From Criblamydia sequanensis CRIB-18 (GTDB lineage: Bacteria > Chlamydiota > Chlamydiia > Chlamydiales > Criblamydiaceae), in the NCBI RefSeq assembly GCF_000750955.1, contig NZ_CCEJ010000010.1:1-64000 (forward strand): DNA of 64,000 nucleotides, read 5' to 3'. Shown piece by piece: positions 325 to 7,816 of the stretch. A program made the position numbers and the translations under genes. How positions within the stretch are numbered: position 1 is the stretch's first letter; every line of letters starts with the position of its first letter. The notes under the pieces were generated by a model that saw nothing but the letters and a program-made list of their open reading frames with translations, searched no databases and was not told the origin of the DNA.

Positions 325-880
325 TCTTGGGTGTGTGTGCAAGTTCCGGCCAACATTCCACGGTTTGATTAAATCATTTATTTTAGTTGAGTTTGATATC
401 ATTAATAGTATGAACAAGTTCGAAAAATTAATAAAAATAATTCTTGAAGGTAGAGAAACTTCTAAGAGTACTACATCATTAAAGAAATGAATTACCAGTT
501 GTCTGTACTGATGCAGAAAGCTTAGATGAGGACAAAGAAAGCTTTATTCCCGCCTTGAGTTGTGCACTACTGGTGCAGTGAAAGGCATATTCTGCAGTAA
601 ATTCCAGTAGCAATTTATACGGAAAGTCTTTAATATCATACCTATAGCAGTTTGAAAGAGCTGGTTAAGTCTGTTTTTCCCCTCACTCATAACCATTTTG
701 GTTCCTGGTTCGAGTTCGGATTACCCCACTTCTTTAAGCTCGTGTAATCACAAGCAATTATTTGACTTAAGATCTACACCATTTTTTTCATTAATATTTT
801 TTTTGAAATCAAAATATGTGCCCGGAAATTAAACCAAAATCTCCCTTTTGATACTTTTTCTTGAGCCTATTCATTATACT
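325..880. other. Gene-free stretch, probably decayed DNA
   Basis: No convincing gene. A short frame starts with ATG at 410 (MNKFEKLIKI...) and stops after 26 codons; it could be the head of a broken gene. All other frames are interrupted. AT content rises toward 780-850, just ahead of the HNH gene, where its promoter should lie. No tRNA or riboswitch fold was recognised. Confidence 0.5.
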
Positions 881-2026
881 ATGATCAATAAAGTGTCCCC
901 TCCCATTTTAGTAGAAAATAGCCAAAAACGAGTTCTAGATAATACAATATACTATTTAGAACACTATCTTAAACCGGATAGAAAATGGGGCAAAAACACC
1001 ACTCCAAAACAGAGAATTGATCTTATAAGGAATGCCGATGTCAATTGGCAAACCGTTTGCTGTCATATCAGATCCATGCCCTACTACGACTTCTTAAATA
1101 CGCCTTATTGGAAAGCGATAGCGGATCATACTAAATATAAAGCCGGCTATAGATGCCAACTTTGCAACAGCAATCATAAGTTGGCTACCCATCACAGGAA
1201 TTACAGAATCCACGGATTTGAGCATGCTAACATGCAGGAATTAATAGTAATTTGCGAGCGTTGCCATAACAAATTTCATGACCGATTGCCAAAAGCGAAA
1301 CCCGATTTGGAACTGCATCGCAGAAATTCCAAAATCCACCATTACGAATTGACTCCTGCCCCAAAATCAACGGCTATTAGGAAAATTAGCCAAAGCAAAT
1401 TTCATTTTCGACTGCTCAAAAAAAAAATTTTTAAGATTATTATTATTTTAATGATTTCATTTGTCATTTTCGCGAGTTTACTTTCTTCGAATAACTCTGC
1501 TTTGGAGAAAATTACACCTGCAAAACCTATAGATTATAAAGAATTTGTTTTTTCAAAATTAAATGAAACCGGAAAAAGCTCATCATTAAATCAAGAGAAT
1601 AAGGAAAGTAAAGCTGTCGACAATCTTCTGGCAGCACAACAATTCGCTATCAGTATTCGGTCCAAAAAAGACGGCTTTCCTTATCTTGCAGAAGCTTTAA
1701 GAAAATTTGGAATCACAAGAAACATTTGGAATCTCCCTTCATGTAAAAATATTTATTTAACCAAATATGGTTCTGTTGTATGTCAGGGAACCCCTATTGA
1801 TATAACAACGGTTAATATTCCCCCTTTTAATAGAGAGGCTCTTATAAAAGTCATAGGAAATGACCAAGCCATTCAAAGGACTTTTCCGGAATTCTTAAAA
1901 GCTTTGTGGGAGGCAGGGGTTGTAAGGTACGAGGTAGATTTTGAAAAGCGCAAAGTCACTTATTATGGACTTTCCGATCAAATCTATTCAGTTACCTATC
2001 CGGCTGTAGAGATAAACTCAGACTGA
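881..2026 (+). CDS. HNH-type zinc/nuclease domain - membrane segment - DUF1398 fusion protein
   Basis: Three parts are visible. Residues about 88-135 form an HNH-like domain: C92xxC95, HH at 104-105, then C125xxC128H and FH at 132-133, the layout of an HNH endonuclease with a structural zinc. Residues about 185-203 are one hydrophobic membrane segment (FKIIIILMISFVIFASLL) next to a lysine-rich stretch. Residues about 245-381 match the DUF1398 (YbcV-like) family and are closely similar to the stand-alone protein at 38161-38589. I use ATG at 881; an in-frame TTG at 848 would add 11 residues but has no better ribosome site. Function is unknown: the HNH part suggests DNA cleavage, the membrane anchor argues for an envelope location. 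It sits beside repeats and decayed DNA, which suggests acquisition. Confidence 0.8.
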   Translation: MINKVSPPILVENSQKRVLDNTIYYLEHYLKPDRKWGKNTTPKQRIDLIRNADVNWQTVCCHIRSMPYYDFLNTPYWKAIADHTKYKAGYRCQLCNSNHKLATHHRNYRIHGFEHANMQELIVICERCHNKFHDRLPKAKPDLELHRRNSKIHHYELTPAPKSTAIRKISQSKFHFRLLKKKIFKIIIILMISFVIFASLLSSNNSALEKITPAKPIDYKEFVFSKLNETGKSSSLNQENKESKAVDNLLAAQQFAISIRSKKDGFPYLAEALRKFGITRNIWNLPSCKNIYLTKYGSVVCQGTPIDITTVNIPPFNREALIKVIGNDQAIQRTFPEFLKALWEAGVVRYEVDFEKRKVTYYGLSDQIYSVTYPAVEINSD

Positions 2027-2197: not shown

Positions 2198-3049
2198 CTA
2201 CATGCCGGGGGCTAATTTTTTTAAAAGAAAGTCCTCCAAGCTTTGGAGGCATTCATTTTTATCGGTTTGCTTTAAGAGAGAAACGTGAATATCAGGCAGT
2301 GAAGGAAGAAAATCTTCCTGGATGACTTCTAAGGTGTCCGGAATCATTGTTCTTGGCAAGACTGTGATTCCCATACCCGCATTAACGGCGGCAATAACTC
2401 CTGCATAACTTGGGCTTATAAATACTATTTTCCACCTAATTCCATTCTGTTCGAGCGATTGAAGAGCGCTTGCTCTATAAACGCAAGGCTCCGGTGAAAG
2501 TACAAGCGGTACCGGATTATTTTTATCTGAAGACAGCCGATAATCGTTTTTGCCTATCCACTCCAAAGGTTCAGACCAAACCTCAACCCCGTTTGGAAAA
2601 TCTTCAGGACGACTCATTTTAACCAAAACCATATCAAAAGCGCCTTTCTTAAAGCGGTCAAATAGATTTAAAGTTAAGTCGCATTCCACATTAAGTAATA
2701 TTCGAGGATGGAGTCTTGAAAAATCTGTGAGAACATCGGAGAGGAACATGGCGGCAAAATCTTCAGGAAGCCCAAATCGTATCTCTCCTTCAAGCTCAGG
2801 ATGCTTAAAGCGATCCAACACTTCCAAATGCAAAGCAAATATCTTATTTGCATACGGTAGAAATATTTCTCCGTCTTTGGTCAGCCTTATTTGCTTTCCT
2901 CTATCAAAAAGTCTCTTTCCAAGACTTTTCTCTAAACTGCTCATCTGCTGGGTAATAGCGGACTGCGTTCGGTTTACCATTTGCGCGGCCCTTGTAAAGC
3001 TGCCTGTTTCTGCAACGGCTAAAAAACATCTAAGAGTAAACTCATTCAT
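2198..3049 (-). CDS. LysR-family transcriptional regulator, divergent from dabBA
   Basis: A 283-residue LysR-type regulator of normal length. Residues 1-60 form the winged helix-turn-helix, with the family signature AVAETGSFTRAAQ at 11-23 and an LGKRLFDR wing at about 43-50. Residues from about 88 form the periplasmic-binding-protein-like effector domain. It is transcribed away from dabB across a gap of 97 bp that holds a dyad typical of LysR operators (3096-3109). LysR genes are common neighbours of dabB-dabA in other genomes, so control of carbon uptake is the natural inference. The effector cannot be read from the sequence. Confidence 0.85.
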   Translation of the reverse strand: MNEFTLRCFLAVAETGSFTRAAQMVNRTQSAITQQMSSLEKSLGKRLFDRGKQIRLTKDGEIFLPYANKIFALHLEVLDRFKHPELEGEIRFGLPEDFAAMFLSDVLTDFSRLHPRILLNVECDLTLNLFDRFKKGAFDMVLVKMSRPEDFPNGVEVWSEPLEWIGKNDYRLSSDKNNPVPLVLSPEPCVYRASALQSLEQNGIRWKIVFISPSYAGVIAAVNAGMGITVLPRTMIPDTLEVIQEDFLPSLPDIHVSLLKQTDKNECLQSLEDFLLKKLAPGM

Positions 3050-3146: not shown

Positions 3147-4673
3147 ATGGTCGTAGCCGAAAATACAACTTACTACTTTCTGATGATCATTTTGACTCCC
3201 CTGCTGGGGTTGCTCATCAACCTGTTGTTCTTTAAAAAAAATCCCTCCTTGGGATCACGCATTGCATCTCTTGGGATTTGGATAGGATTTATTAATACCT
3301 TGGGCGCCTGGTTTATAGGTTTGCCCTTTTATGAAAAGAATGAATCCGCAGGATTCATAGCGAATGAAATTTCTTGGCTGATGGCTACACTTATTTTATT
3401 CATCAGCGGGGTGGTGCATCATTTTTCGCTCCGCTATATGGCAGGTGATAGAAATTATCGCAGATATTTTCTTTTTCTTGGCTTGATCACTATCAGCACA
3501 CTGCTGCTTGCTGCCTCCGATAATATTGTCATTTTGATCCTGTTTTGGTCACTAAGCAACCTGTTACTTGTCCTTCTTATGATGCATAAATTTGAATGGG
3601 AAGCGGCTAAAAATTCCGGTGTTTTAGCAATTAAAACATTTGCACTAGGTCTAGTTTTTTTAAGTATCGGCACAGGTTTATTAGCCTACGAGTCAGGGAC
3701 CCTGTCTTTACATCTTATTATGGAAAAGAGTGAAAGTCTAACGGCTTCAATAAGAATGACAACTCTTTTTTTTATCATCCTGGCAGCTTTTTCTCAATCC
3801 GGCGGCTGGCCCTTTCATAGTTGGCTAATTAGCTCTCTTAATTCACCCACACCGGTTTCAGCCTTTATGCATGCCGGATTAGTTAACGGCGGCGGTCTTT
3901 TAATCGCACGTTTTGCCCCTATCTTTTTTCAAGAGAGCCTTCTTGCAAATGTTTTGTTTATATTAGCTTTAATCACCCTTATTTTGGGGGGGATTTGGAA
4001 GCTTATCCAAAGCGATATCAAGAGAATGCTTGCTTGTTCTACTATGACTCAAATGGGATTTATGATGATGCAATGCGGCCTTGGACTTTTTCCAGCTGCT
4101 TTAGCCCATCTATTTTGGCACGGCCTATTCAAAGCTTTTCTCTTCCTTAGATCCGGATCAACGATTGCAGAAGATCGATTCCAAAATGAAGAAAAAGAGA
4201 GCACCGTCCCTGCATTTATCTTATCCTCTCTTTGTGGGCTTTTAGGGGCTTTCGGATTTATTATTGGAAGCGGCCTTTCGTTTACTCTTATCGATACAAC
4301 AGCAGTTCTTATTTTCTTTTGCTGGATGGCATCCACTCAGTTAGCTCACACCCTCCTTCAAAAGAAACAGTCTCTCTTTTTTGTTTTGATTACAAGTGTC
4401 TTCAGCTTATCTACAGGCCTCATTTATGGACTTACCGTTTATCTAATCGAATCTGCTGTAGCGCCGCTCCAAATCTCGCAACCACAGATGCTAAGTTCCA
4501 TCCACATCACTGCCGTTGCCTTGATATTTTTTATTTGGATAGGGCTCAACTTAAAGCCCTTGACAAATCACGAAGGATCTCTTTGGTGGAGACGTTTTTA
4601 TGTGAAAATGCTTAATGCCAGCCAACCTGATCCAAAAGCCATTACATCAATTAGAAGCGGATACAAATTTTAG
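3147..4673 (+). CDS. dabB: DabB-type membrane subunit (NuoL/MrpA-like) of an inorganic-carbon transporter
   Basis: A 508-residue polytopic membrane protein of the proton-pumping NADH dehydrogenase subunit family. It is hydrophobic throughout, with about a dozen helices. The family core WPFHSWL is at 221-227 and SPTPVSAFMHAGLVNGGG at 233-250; a charged IQSDIKRMLACSTMTQMG stretch lies at about 287-304. It is followed after 11 bp by dabA and no other complex I subunit is nearby, so it is DabB rather than a respiratory subunit. In characterised DAB systems the NuoL-like subunit couples cation flow to CO2 capture by DabA. ATG at 3147 is preceded by AGGGTGG. Confidence 0.88.
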   Translation: MVVAENTTYYFLMIILTPLLGLLINLLFFKKNPSLGSRIASLGIWIGFINTLGAWFIGLPFYEKNESAGFIANEISWLMATLILFISGVVHHFSLRYMAGDRNYRRYFLFLGLITISTLLLAASDNIVILILFWSLSNLLLVLLMMHKFEWEAAKNSGVLAIKTFALGLVFLSIGTGLLAYESGTLSLHLIMEKSESLTASIRMTTLFFIILAAFSQSGGWPFHSWLISSLNSPTPVSAFMHAGLVNGGGLLIARFAPIFFQESLLANVLFILALITLILGGIWKLIQSDIKRMLACSTMTQMGFMMMQCGLGLFPAALAHLFWHGLFKAFLFLRSGSTIAEDRFQNEEKESTVPAFILSSLCGLLGAFGFIIGSGLSFTLIDTTAVLIFFCWMASTQLAHTLLQKKQSLFFVLITSVFSLSTGLIYGLTVYLIESAVAPLQISQPQMLSSIHITAVALIFFIWIGLNLKPLTNHEGSLWWRRFYVKMLNASQPDPKAITSIRSGYKF

Positions 4674-4684
4674 GACTTAAGATC

Positions 4685-7600
4685 ATGAAAGCAATTGATG
4701 TGAACATCAAAACCTTTATTGCAAACGCGGCAGAAATCATTGCCCCTCTTTGGCCCATGCAAACCATCATTGCCAGAAATCCGCTTCAATGCTTTGAATC
4801 GTTGAACTTTGAAGATGCGATTGCAATGGAGGAAATTTTTTTAGCCGGAAGCTCTGATAAGATGGACAACGCATCTTGTGAAGTCAATCGAGAATTGGTC
4901 AAGTGGTGCCAGGTTTTTTTAGATGAAGGACAAGCCGCAATCACAATGCCCGAAAGAGAAAAAGGGTTTTACCGTGCTTTTTCATTGCTTGCCCCTTTTG
5001 ATAATAAATTAGGATCTTATAAAAAAAATAAGTGGCTTGGGTCTCTTCCTTCCGAAGCTCTGGAGGCTATTTCTTTATGTCTTAATAAGTTAGAAATTCC
5101 AACTGACCAAATAGAAGATTATTTTAAAAGGTTACTAAGAGAGCTTCCCGGATGGGCAGGGTACATTAAATGGCGGTGTGAGTGGCAAAATAAAGAGGCT
5201 TCTCTAAAAAATCCTATCTCGCTAACCGATTTTTTAGCTGTCAGACTTGTCATCACCTCTGCGATTGGCGGAGATTGTCAAAAAAAGGACTTTAAAAAAG
5301 AGGTTTTTCCTTCAAAGGTCTTAAAAAAAGAGTTTTTAAATGAATTAAAGAAAAAAGAAGAAAAATATCTGAAAGATCTTTTGAAATTAATAGTCCCGGA
5401 GGTTGTGAAGCTAAATAAGACAAAAGAACCTGTTTCTAAACCGGATGCTCAAATTGTGTTTTGCATTGATGTCCGCTCTGAGCCGTTCCGCATGAGAATC
5501 GAGCGAGAAGGCAATTATGAAACCTTTGGCTTTGCCGGTTTTTTTGGATTGCCGGTCTCTGTTCATAACTACAACGGAGATCATTTCAAAGATTGTTGTC
5601 CTGTTCTTATAAAACCCCAATATAAAGTTGTTGAAGAGCCGATCCTAGATGAGATAGGGAGAATTTCCCATCACCAAAAAGGACGAAGTTTGATCAATAT
5701 ATTCCGCAGGTTTTATCAAGATTTAAAATATAATTTTGCAACACCTTTTGCTCTTGTGGAAACCCTTGGCCTTTGGTGTGGTTTTTGGATGGCAATGCGT
5801 ACCCTTATGCCTGCAAGCAGCGTTAAATTTAAAAAAGCCATTCAAGAGATGTTGAAGCCAACCCTTGCCACCCTACCAAAAATTGATATACCGCTGACAA
5901 ATCAAATTACCTTTGGAGAATCAGCTCTAAGAATGATGGGGTTGACGAATAACTTTAGCCCAATCGTTGTATTATGCGGACATGGAAGTCAAACAGAAAA
6001 CAACCCTTATGCTTCAGCTCTTGATTGCGGCGCATGCGGCGGCAATCATGGCGGACCAAACGGAAAAATTCTAGCGGCGATTCTTAATTCTAATGAGGTG
6101 AGGGCGGCTCTTCAGGAAAAAGGGATTGCAATTCCTGATGATACCTTATTCATCGGAGCCCAGCATAATACCACAACTGACGAGGTTGTTCTCGAGGATC
6201 ATGTTGCTCTAAACAATACCCATAAAGAAATAGCTCAGAGGCTAAAAGAAGATTTTAGAAAAGCCGGAATCGCAAATAGTCAATACCGGTGCAGAACATT
6301 CGGTTTGGACCCATCCCCTATTAATGCCAAAAAGCATGTTTTGAAGCGCAGCTCCGACTGGTCTGAGCTCCGCCCCGAGTGGGGTCTTGCACGTAATGCA
6401 GCTTTCATTATTGGGCCGAGAAGTCTTACAAAGAATTTGGATTTAGAGGCGAGATGTTTTTTGCATTCCTATGAATGGGGAGAAGATGAAGATGGAAAGT
6501 CATTAGAGACCATACTAACAGCGCCTTTGATCGTCGCAGAATGGATTAATACGCAATACTTCTTTTCTACTTTGAATAATACTGCCTACGGCAGCGGCAG
6601 TAAGATTACCCATAACGTCACAGGCAAGTTTGGCATTATGCAAGGAAATAGCAGTGACTTGATGCAAGGGCTTCCCATACAATCTGTCAACATCAACGAT
6701 GACCAATCTTATCATGAGCCTATGCGTTTGCAAGTCGTTGTTTATGCGCCGCGTTCAAGGTTAGAATCGATTATTGAAAAACATGCAATTTTGCAAACTT
6801 TACTATTTAATCATTGGATTATTTTGGCAGCAATAGACCCCAAAGACAGCAAAGCTTATCAATTAATCGGGAAGGCAGAATGGCTAGAGATTAAATCCTG
6901 TAATGATAAAAATTCGTCATTTAAAAAAAATCCCCTCAACTTTAGGACTTTAGAAAAAAAAGCAAAAACGCATTTATATAACGATAAAACCTGTGTTATT
7001 GCGACGATGCATGAAAAAGAAAAAGTGATTGCACCGGCTTTTTTGGATTTAACAGGTCTAAAAATGATCAAAACAAAAATTGATACCGATCAGCTAGGGA
7101 CATTCACCGGAGAAGTAGAAAGGAAAGGCACTCCCTTGATGTGTGTTAGTCAAAAGTGTGAACTTGCGATGAAAGAAAGTAAAGTTAATATCGGCATTGC
7201 GAGCGAGGGAAGCTTTGGGCCGCATCCTTTCATACCATTTTTGAGCTGTGACCAGGAGATTTTATATTTCATGGATCAAGAAAGAGGTTTTTCACTTCAC
7301 CAGTCGTTGCTCAGTACAAAAACAAATTATCGCGCCGAAGCATTTTCTGATCCTAAGCAATTAAAGACATTTTGCGATCAAGCGCTTTTTCCATCTCACG
7401 GTTTAATCGTCAGACCCAATAAATCTCATAAACAAAATTTCATTATCAAGGGTATACAGGCATATGATGAGCTTGAAGACGCGTTTTTAAAGAGCTGCCG
7501 CCTTTCAGACGATGGTAAAGCCTTAATAGAAACAGACATGAGGGCCCACATGAACCCGACCCGGATGGATGTGATTAAAGAATTGGCTAATTCTTTTGCC

Positions 7601-7816
7601 AAGAGACTTGCCACCCCTTGTCCAATATGCTATAACCCGGGCTTCGGATTAGTGGATACCCATTTGGGTTTAGAGTGCGAGATGTGTGGATCAGAAACTG
7701 AAATGGTCAAATCTGAAGTTTTTGGATGTCCAAAATGCCACCACAAAGAAATCCGAGCCAGGGAAGATGGATTAACCGTTGCCGGCCCTGAGTTTTGCGG
7801 TTTTTGCAACCCATAA
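4685..7816 (+). CDS. dabA: DabA (DUF2309) carbonic-anhydrase-like subunit fused to a C-terminal DUF6671-like domain
   Basis: 1043 residues, longer than DabA proteins I know (about 800-870). Residues 1 to about 735 are DabA. C260, D262 and R264 sit in the CIDVRSE motif, and H433 and C448 in a CGHGS...LDCGACGG block. The 2- and 15-residue spacings match the zinc ligands and catalytic Asp of the characterised DabA (C351, D353, H524, C539). Residues about 765-1043 are a second domain with a DTDQLGTFTGEVER motif (800-813), ASEGSFGPHP (839-848), a TDMRAHMNPTRM block (950-961) and four CxxC pairs (979, 998, 1015, 1038). I recognise this as the family called DUF6671, normally a separate protein. Coupled to dabB. 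The product should hydrate CO2 to bicarbonate at the inner membrane. Confidence 0.9.
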   Translation: MKAIDVNIKTFIANAAEIIAPLWPMQTIIARNPLQCFESLNFEDAIAMEEIFLAGSSDKMDNASCEVNRELVKWCQVFLDEGQAAITMPEREKGFYRAFSLLAPFDNKLGSYKKNKWLGSLPSEALEAISLCLNKLEIPTDQIEDYFKRLLRELPGWAGYIKWRCEWQNKEASLKNPISLTDFLAVRLVITSAIGGDCQKKDFKKEVFPSKVLKKEFLNELKKKEEKYLKDLLKLIVPEVVKLNKTKEPVSKPDAQIVFCIDVRSEPFRMRIEREGNYETFGFAGFFGLPVSVHNYNGDHFKDCCPVLIKPQYKVVEEPILDEIGRISHHQKGRSLINIFRRFYQDLKYNFATPFALVETLGLWCGFWMAMRTLMPASSVKFKKAIQEMLKPTLATLPKIDIPLTNQITFGESALRMMGLTNNFSPIVVLCGHGSQTENNPYASALDCGACGGNHGGPNGKILAAILNSNEVRAALQEKGIAIPDDTLFIGAQHNTTTDEVVLEDHVALNNTHKEIAQRLKEDFRKAGIANSQYRCRTFGLDPSPINAKKHVLKRSSDWSELRPEWGLARNAAFIIGPRSLTKNLDLEARCFLHSYEWGEDEDGKSLETILTAPLIVAEWINTQYFFSTLNNTAYGSGSKITHNVTGKFGIMQGNSSDLMQGLPIQSVNINDDQSYHEPMRLQVVVYAPRSRLESIIEKHAILQTLLFNHWIILAAIDPKDSKAYQLIGKAEWLEIKSCNDKNSSFKKNPLNFRTLEKKAKTHLYNDKTCVIATMHEKEKVIAPAFLDLTGLKMIKTKIDTDQLGTFTGEVERKGTPLMCVSQKCELAMKESKVNIGIASEGSFGPHPFIPFLSCDQEILYFMDQERGFSLHQSLLSTKTNYRAEAFSDPKQLKTFCDQALFPSHGLIVRPNKSHKQNFIIKGIQAYDELEDAFLKSCRLSDDGKALIETDMRAHMNPTRMDVIKELANSFAKRLATPCPICYNPGFGLVDTHLGLECEMCGSETEMVKSEVFGCPKCHHKEIRAREDGLTVAGPEFCGFCNP

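Follow-up and report, generated by a model that had tools for sequence, protein, structure and literature searches.

Does a gene of Criblamydia sequanensis CRIB-18 that runs from DabA straight into a DUF6671-like domain encode a genuine two-domain protein, and what would such a domain do beside DabA? The gene lies in a window of 64,000 nucleotides (the whole stretch of DNA that we analysed), where one open frame at 4685-7816 on the plus strand covers both domains. The first-pass annotation had proposed a fusion of DabA with a DUF6671-like domain and suggested a Pfam check for both families. The proposal was borne out, since Pfam gave DabA (PF10070) and DUF6671 (PF20376) in a single open reading frame. 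The features of the locus are:

2198..3049, minus strand: LysR-type regulator, divergent (PF00126 and PF03466)
3147..4673, plus strand: DabB-like proton-conducting membrane subunit, 508 aa (PF00361 and PF00662)
4685..7816, plus strand: DabA-DUF6671 fusion protein, 1043 aa (PF10070 and PF20376; equivalent fusion in G166/L117 and G127/L021)
4685..6835, plus strand: DabA part, residues 1 to about 717, with active site C260-D262-R264, H433 and C448 (from PF10070 and motif positions)
6836..6979, plus strand: linker, about residues 718-765, of variable sequence and length and predicted to be disordered (from the three fused genomes and the model)
6980..7813, plus strand: DUF6671 domain, residues 766-1043, with a predicted ITPase/YjjX-like fold and then two Cys4 zinc-ribbon-like sites (from alignments, a model with pLDDT 95 and a PDB fold search)

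The N-terminal part has every mark of DabA. The PF10070 match spans residues 62-712 (767 bits, E 3e-230) and covers profile positions 103-747 of 747, with a separate N-terminal match to positions 1-37. In the structure of DabA2, the zinc ligands and the Asp-Arg dyad are C351, D353, R355, H524 and C539 (PMC13144422). C260-D262-R264, H433 and C448 of the fusion correspond to this active site with identical spacing (173 and 15), so that the Cys/His/Cys ligands and the dyad are all present and the earlier statement that the zinc and catalytic residues are intact stands. The DabB-like gene is directly upstream, as DabB adjoins DabA in the Chlamydiota dab loci that we read and in most other dab loci, and the divergent LysR gene is likewise found in L113-L118. 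The locus thus resembles the DAB/MpsAB energy-coupled CO2 hydration system in its active-site residues, its DabB-like partner and its LysR gene; it differs in that DabA carries a C-terminal DUF6671 domain and in that the host is a Chlamydiota bacterium rather than an autotroph.

Two other genes of the window deserve mention. Directly downstream of the fusion lies a SOUL heme-binding protein gene (PF04832; 7859-8512, plus strand). A cluster of similar-looking proteins occurs near DUF6671 in L026, L028, L040 and L096, with another in L114, and one member of that cluster reads as SOUL by eye. At 848-2026 (plus strand), an open reading frame has HNH-like Cys/His motifs (CQLCN...HH...CERCHNKFH), with a probable membrane segment after them.

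The C-terminal part was equally clear. PF20376 matched residues 824-1043 over its full length (model positions 1-217 of 217; 193.5 bits, E 5e-57, against a curated cut-off of 23.8 bits). Together with a conserved domain that begins at about residue 766, this supports the earlier assignment of residues 765-1043 to a separate family. The motifs on which that assignment relied could all be located, namely GTFTGEVER (805), SEGSFGPHP (840), NPTR (957) and four CxxC pairs (979/982, 998/1001, 1015/1018 and 1038/1041).

The junction contains two A8 runs, and a frame error that joins two neighbouring genes was therefore a reasonable suspicion. It was ruled out by in-frame fusions in two other Chlamydiota genomes. 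In G166/L117, whose DabA is 83% identical, the junction segment has the same length of 48 residues and no A8 runs; in G127/L021, at 68% identity, it is different and shorter, with 39 residues. At the junction, neither of the other two frames is open in any of the three fused genomes. DabA-DUF6671 is a natural fusion that recurs in three genomes. In a DabA tree the three fused proteins cluster beside the unfused DabA of G110 (100/100 for this four-row clade, 85/74 for the fused trio), which suggests that one fusion event lies behind them. G110 belongs to the same genus as G127 and has DabA without DUF6671, which shows that DabA can do without the domain. The G110 protein stops in a short tail at the point where the linker begins; loss of DUF6671 after the fusion is possible there but not shown. 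In G018 and G172, and in several relatives from other phyla (L026, L027, L030, L032, L036 and L040), dabA and DUF6671 are encoded separately, with an overlap of about 14-19 bases between the two genes; a fusion of this kind would start from just such a layout. A model of the full-length fusion had a well-folded DUF6671 domain and a disordered linker (pLDDT < 50 at 699-761). The DabA part was poor (overall mean pLDDT 69), and we therefore make no statement on contacts between the domains.

The conserved domain has about 278 residues in our alignments. The PF20376 model starts only at Lys824 and leaves out the first 58 or so conserved residues (766-823), with the segments ATxHxKE and DTDxxGTFTGExxR; the invariant His11, Lys13, Asp37 and Arg48 (domain numbering) lie outside the curated model. 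Across 69 DUF6671 sequences of many phyla, 28 columns were invariant: eight Cys and the residues H11, K13, T36, D37, G40, F42, R48, K59, E76, P83, E93, D186, R188, A189, N192, P193, R195, G221, N277 and P278. Both marks of a DUF6671 protein, the invariant polar residues and the four CxxC pairs, are present in the fusion. It shares all invariant residues with the stand-alone proteins (PF20376, about 280-300 aa), from which it differs in being joined to DabA.

An AlphaFold2 model of the domain reached pLDDT 95. Its top PDB matches in Foldseek were mostly human ITPase, E. coli YjjX, MJ0226 and PH1917, with Ham1 and Maf lower. The Foldseek probability was 0.99-1.00 for ITPase/YjjX/Ham1 entries, but the TM scores were modest (0.29-0.48, rmsd about 4 A over about 120 residues), and hhalign gave no significant profile-profile match to Ham1/RdgB or YjjX (probability below 1%). 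In the two short pieces that hhalign did align, ATxHxKE falls opposite ATTNPAK of YjjX, and the K59 region opposite the KA region of RdgB. For these reasons we call DUF6671 ITPase/YjjX-like in fold rather than a member of those families. The predicted core fold is its likeness to the ITPase/Ham1/RdgB and YjjX NTP pyrophosphatases; a different C-terminal motif and added zinc ribbons set it apart. The last 65 or so residues contain Cys4 zinc-ribbon-like sites, judged from weak Zn-ribbon matches, and a sequence search of the PDB with DUF6671 returned chance zinc-ribbon matches only. The first-pass description as a zinc domain thus holds for the C-terminal ribbons; it misses the larger N-terminal part, which is predicted to adopt the ITPase/YjjX-like fold.

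How the domain is placed in other genomes was examined next to these results. A genome scan with the window domain alone as query gave no matches. A profile built from the alignment succeeded and confirmed at least 578 DUF6671 places, of which the best 80 were kept; with 12 further loci from plasmids, 90 usable loci were analysed. As the best 80 are those most similar to the query, and related organisms recur among the loci (Methylocystis, Arthrobacter, Cyanobium), the percentages are not survey estimates. DUF6671 was not found in viral and phage collections, and a full-text search of 5.39 million papers, all of them open-access, found no mention of it. In L064, L073, L080, L082 and L093 the DUF6671 frame extends far upstream; these extensions had no family match and were rejected as probable high-GC open frames.

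All 234 Chlamydiota genomes returned for the phylum were searched. Each of the seven intact DUF6671 genes was fused to dabA (3), beside dabBA (2) or beside sbtA (2), and was accompanied by a divergent LysR gene. One further copy, in a MAG titled Chlamydia trachomatis whose species label appears wrong (L022/G209), is broken by an internal TAA and lies beside an apparent LysR remnant; it was excluded from the counts.

With families assigned by profile identification or plasmid annotation, an inorganic-carbon (Ci) transporter (DabA/DabB, SbtA or a CmpA-like ABC system) was nearby in 62 of the 90 other loci, and either such a transporter or a CO2/HCO3-/carboxy-lysine enzyme in 75. By family, the counts were 35 for DabA, 23 for SbtA and 8 for CmpA-like systems. 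DabA lay within 10 kb in its 35 loci, which come from several phyla, and within 3 kb in 30 of these; on plasmids, dab or sbtA was at most 8 kb away for 11 of the 12 copies. Proximity was tested in the 43 loci flanked by 9 kb or more on each side, by comparison with all other open reading frames (background 34.5%). Within 3 kb of DUF6671 lay 32/43 transporters (p = 1e-7) and 16/18 enzymes (p = 3e-6). Gene order and strand differ between phyla, so the neighbourhood is not one inherited block. Where no Dab or Sbt was adjacent, 16 of 21 genomes carried one elsewhere and five had neither DabA nor SbtA anywhere. SbtB was also present in several loci. The first-pass annotation had predicted that stand-alone DUF6671 genes would co-occur with dab genes. 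They do so in the 35 loci above, and the genome co-occurrence in Chlamydiota is significant (Fisher p = 2.7e-5); but the link is not to DAB alone, as it extends to SbtA, BCT1-like ABC transporters and CO2/HCO3--dependent enzymes.

The enzymes counted in the 90 loci were PyrC (11), a second dihydroorotase-like type (6), TsaC (9), IlvD (8), acyl-CoA carboxylase (7), PurK (5), FolC (3) and Mur ligase (3), a class that was defined only after the neighbours had been seen. TsaC, PurK and acyl-CoA carboxylases consume HCO3-, and FolC has a lysine that is carbamylated by CO2. The same modification is described for dihydroorotase (PMC8659124) and for the Mur ligase MurE (PMC3829189), while IlvD-family dehydratases have a carbamylated Lys in their CDK motif (PMC5770437). 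The carbamylation lysine was kept in 10/10 PyrC (KxYPA), 8/8 IlvD (CDK) and 3/3 FolC (KAGI/KVGI) neighbours tested. These neighbours are therefore ordinary CO2-requiring enzymes, and the possibility that they are CO2-independent paralogs without the lysine was ruled out. In five of eight genomes tested, the only other candidate besides the neighbour PyrC was a distant dihydroorotase-like protein elsewhere, so that the neighbour looks like an extra class of enzyme in those five. Genomic context ties DUF6671 both to Ci uptake and to CO2/HCO3--dependent enzymes.

A Desulforudis MAG (L075, 8693-10840) has PurK and DUF6671 in one open frame of 715 aa, an unconfirmed candidate for a second natural fusion, here with an HCO3--using enzyme. 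On plasmid pSDM007 of Pseudomonas hygromyciniae (L016), one island holds cysD, nhaR, terC, DUF6671, pyrC, ilvD, sbtA and sbtB, together with TsaC-like frames and split Mur-ligase/FolC-like frames; it reads as a portable low-CO2 kit.

Other recurrent neighbours were isocitrate dehydrogenase (IDH; 13), CysD (12) and TerC (10). A CysD-like sulfate adenylyltransferase subunit is beside or near DUF6671 in L010, L018, L024, L066, L067, L074, L086 and L096, and on the plasmids checked no cysN was annotated beside the CysD-like genes. An IDH-like protein (PF00180 and PF18324 in those tested) is close to DUF6671 in 12 loci (L033, L041, L042, L047, L048, L054, L056, L068, L077, L089, L090 and L095). TerC was not concentrated near DUF6671 (0/3 within 3 kb). 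The recurrence of these three does not fit a pure CO2/HCO3- theme.

What, then, could DUF6671 do? One explanation is that DUF6671 regulates or gates Ci transporters as its dedicated task, as a nucleotide-binding protein that would switch DabAB or SbtA through direct contact in the manner of SbtB, the PII-like regulator of SbtA. DUF6671 is indeed fused or adjacent to DabA and beside SbtA at many loci, its predicted fold is of a nucleotide type, and like SbtB it is encoded beside a Ci transporter. But this fold is unrelated to that of SbtB, and the transporters that it accompanies (Dab, SbtA and the ABC type) are unrelated to one another. Many copies adjoin soluble biosynthetic enzymes with no transporter near, SbtB is already present in several loci, and a role in binding only would not obviously require so many invariant polar residues. 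We regard such a gate as unlikely, though worth keeping in mind. With unrelated transporters and many soluble enzymes as partners, DUF6671 is more likely to play one shared cytosolic role in using HCO3- than to act as a transporter-specific gate.

The fold itself would agree with a house-cleaning role as an NTP pyrophosphatase of the ITPase/YjjX kind; the proximity to Ci genes would then reflect a side product of low-CO2 nucleotide metabolism and not carbon handling. Lys13 and Lys59 align with motif lysines of ITPase/YjjX in the short hhalign pieces; yet the profile match is not significant, neither the zinc ribbons nor the DMRAHxNPTR motif belongs to these families, and the genome already has a gene for a Ham1 pyrophosphatase, all of which leaves this explanation doubtful. 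The eight invariant Cys, and the finding that some copies have PyrC, TerC or, in one case, a carbonic anhydrase nearby, could instead point to a zinc-economy or metal-stress set in which DUF6671 is a zinc-binding accessory and these neighbours are metal-related paralogs. This is very improbable: IlvD (Fe-S/Mg), FolC, PurK and TsaC recur although none of them is a zinc enzyme, Ci transporters predominate, and none of the three TerC genes was within 3 kb.

We favour, with somewhat better than even confidence, a natural DabA-DUF6671 fusion in which DUF6671, encoded on its own in most bacteria, is a nucleotide-handling and zinc-ribbon component of the response to CO2/HCO3- limitation, tethered by the linker to a source of HCO3-. 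DabA, a cytosolic subunit that resembles beta-carbonic anhydrases, converts CO2 to HCO3- (energy-coupled hydration by the fusion itself is inferred), and the flexible linker would hold DUF6671 beside this site of HCO3- production, where it may serve CO2/HCO3- limitation as a cytosolic NTP-handling enzyme or sensor. That DUF6671 is an enzyme, with NTP and Mg2+ as ligands and HCO3- from DabA or SbtA as its substrate or signal, is inferred without biochemical data. Because the fold similarity is modest and no profile match is significant, NTP use has not been shown. A more specific version, which we offer only as a long shot, is that DUF6671 marks a so far unrecognised low-CO2 guild of bacteria as its NTP-using protein, activating HCO3- or sustaining CO2-dependent enzymes when CO2 is scarce. 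It might, for example, assist the loading of the carbamyl-lysine in PyrC, IlvD and FolC/Mur ligases, or provide carboxyphosphate-like donors. If this were true, the DabA and PurK fusions would couple DUF6671 to a source and to a user of HCO3-, respectively.

These results give the first strong functional lead for DUF6671, a broad bacterial family, and link it through fusion and operon context to inorganic carbon in both autotrophs and heterotrophs, which is relevant to the building of CO2-concentrating systems. Since its neighbours form a natural class that needs HCO3- or a CO2-derived carbamyl-lysine, they suggest that bacteria have, beyond uptake, an organised response protecting their CO2-dependent enzymes.
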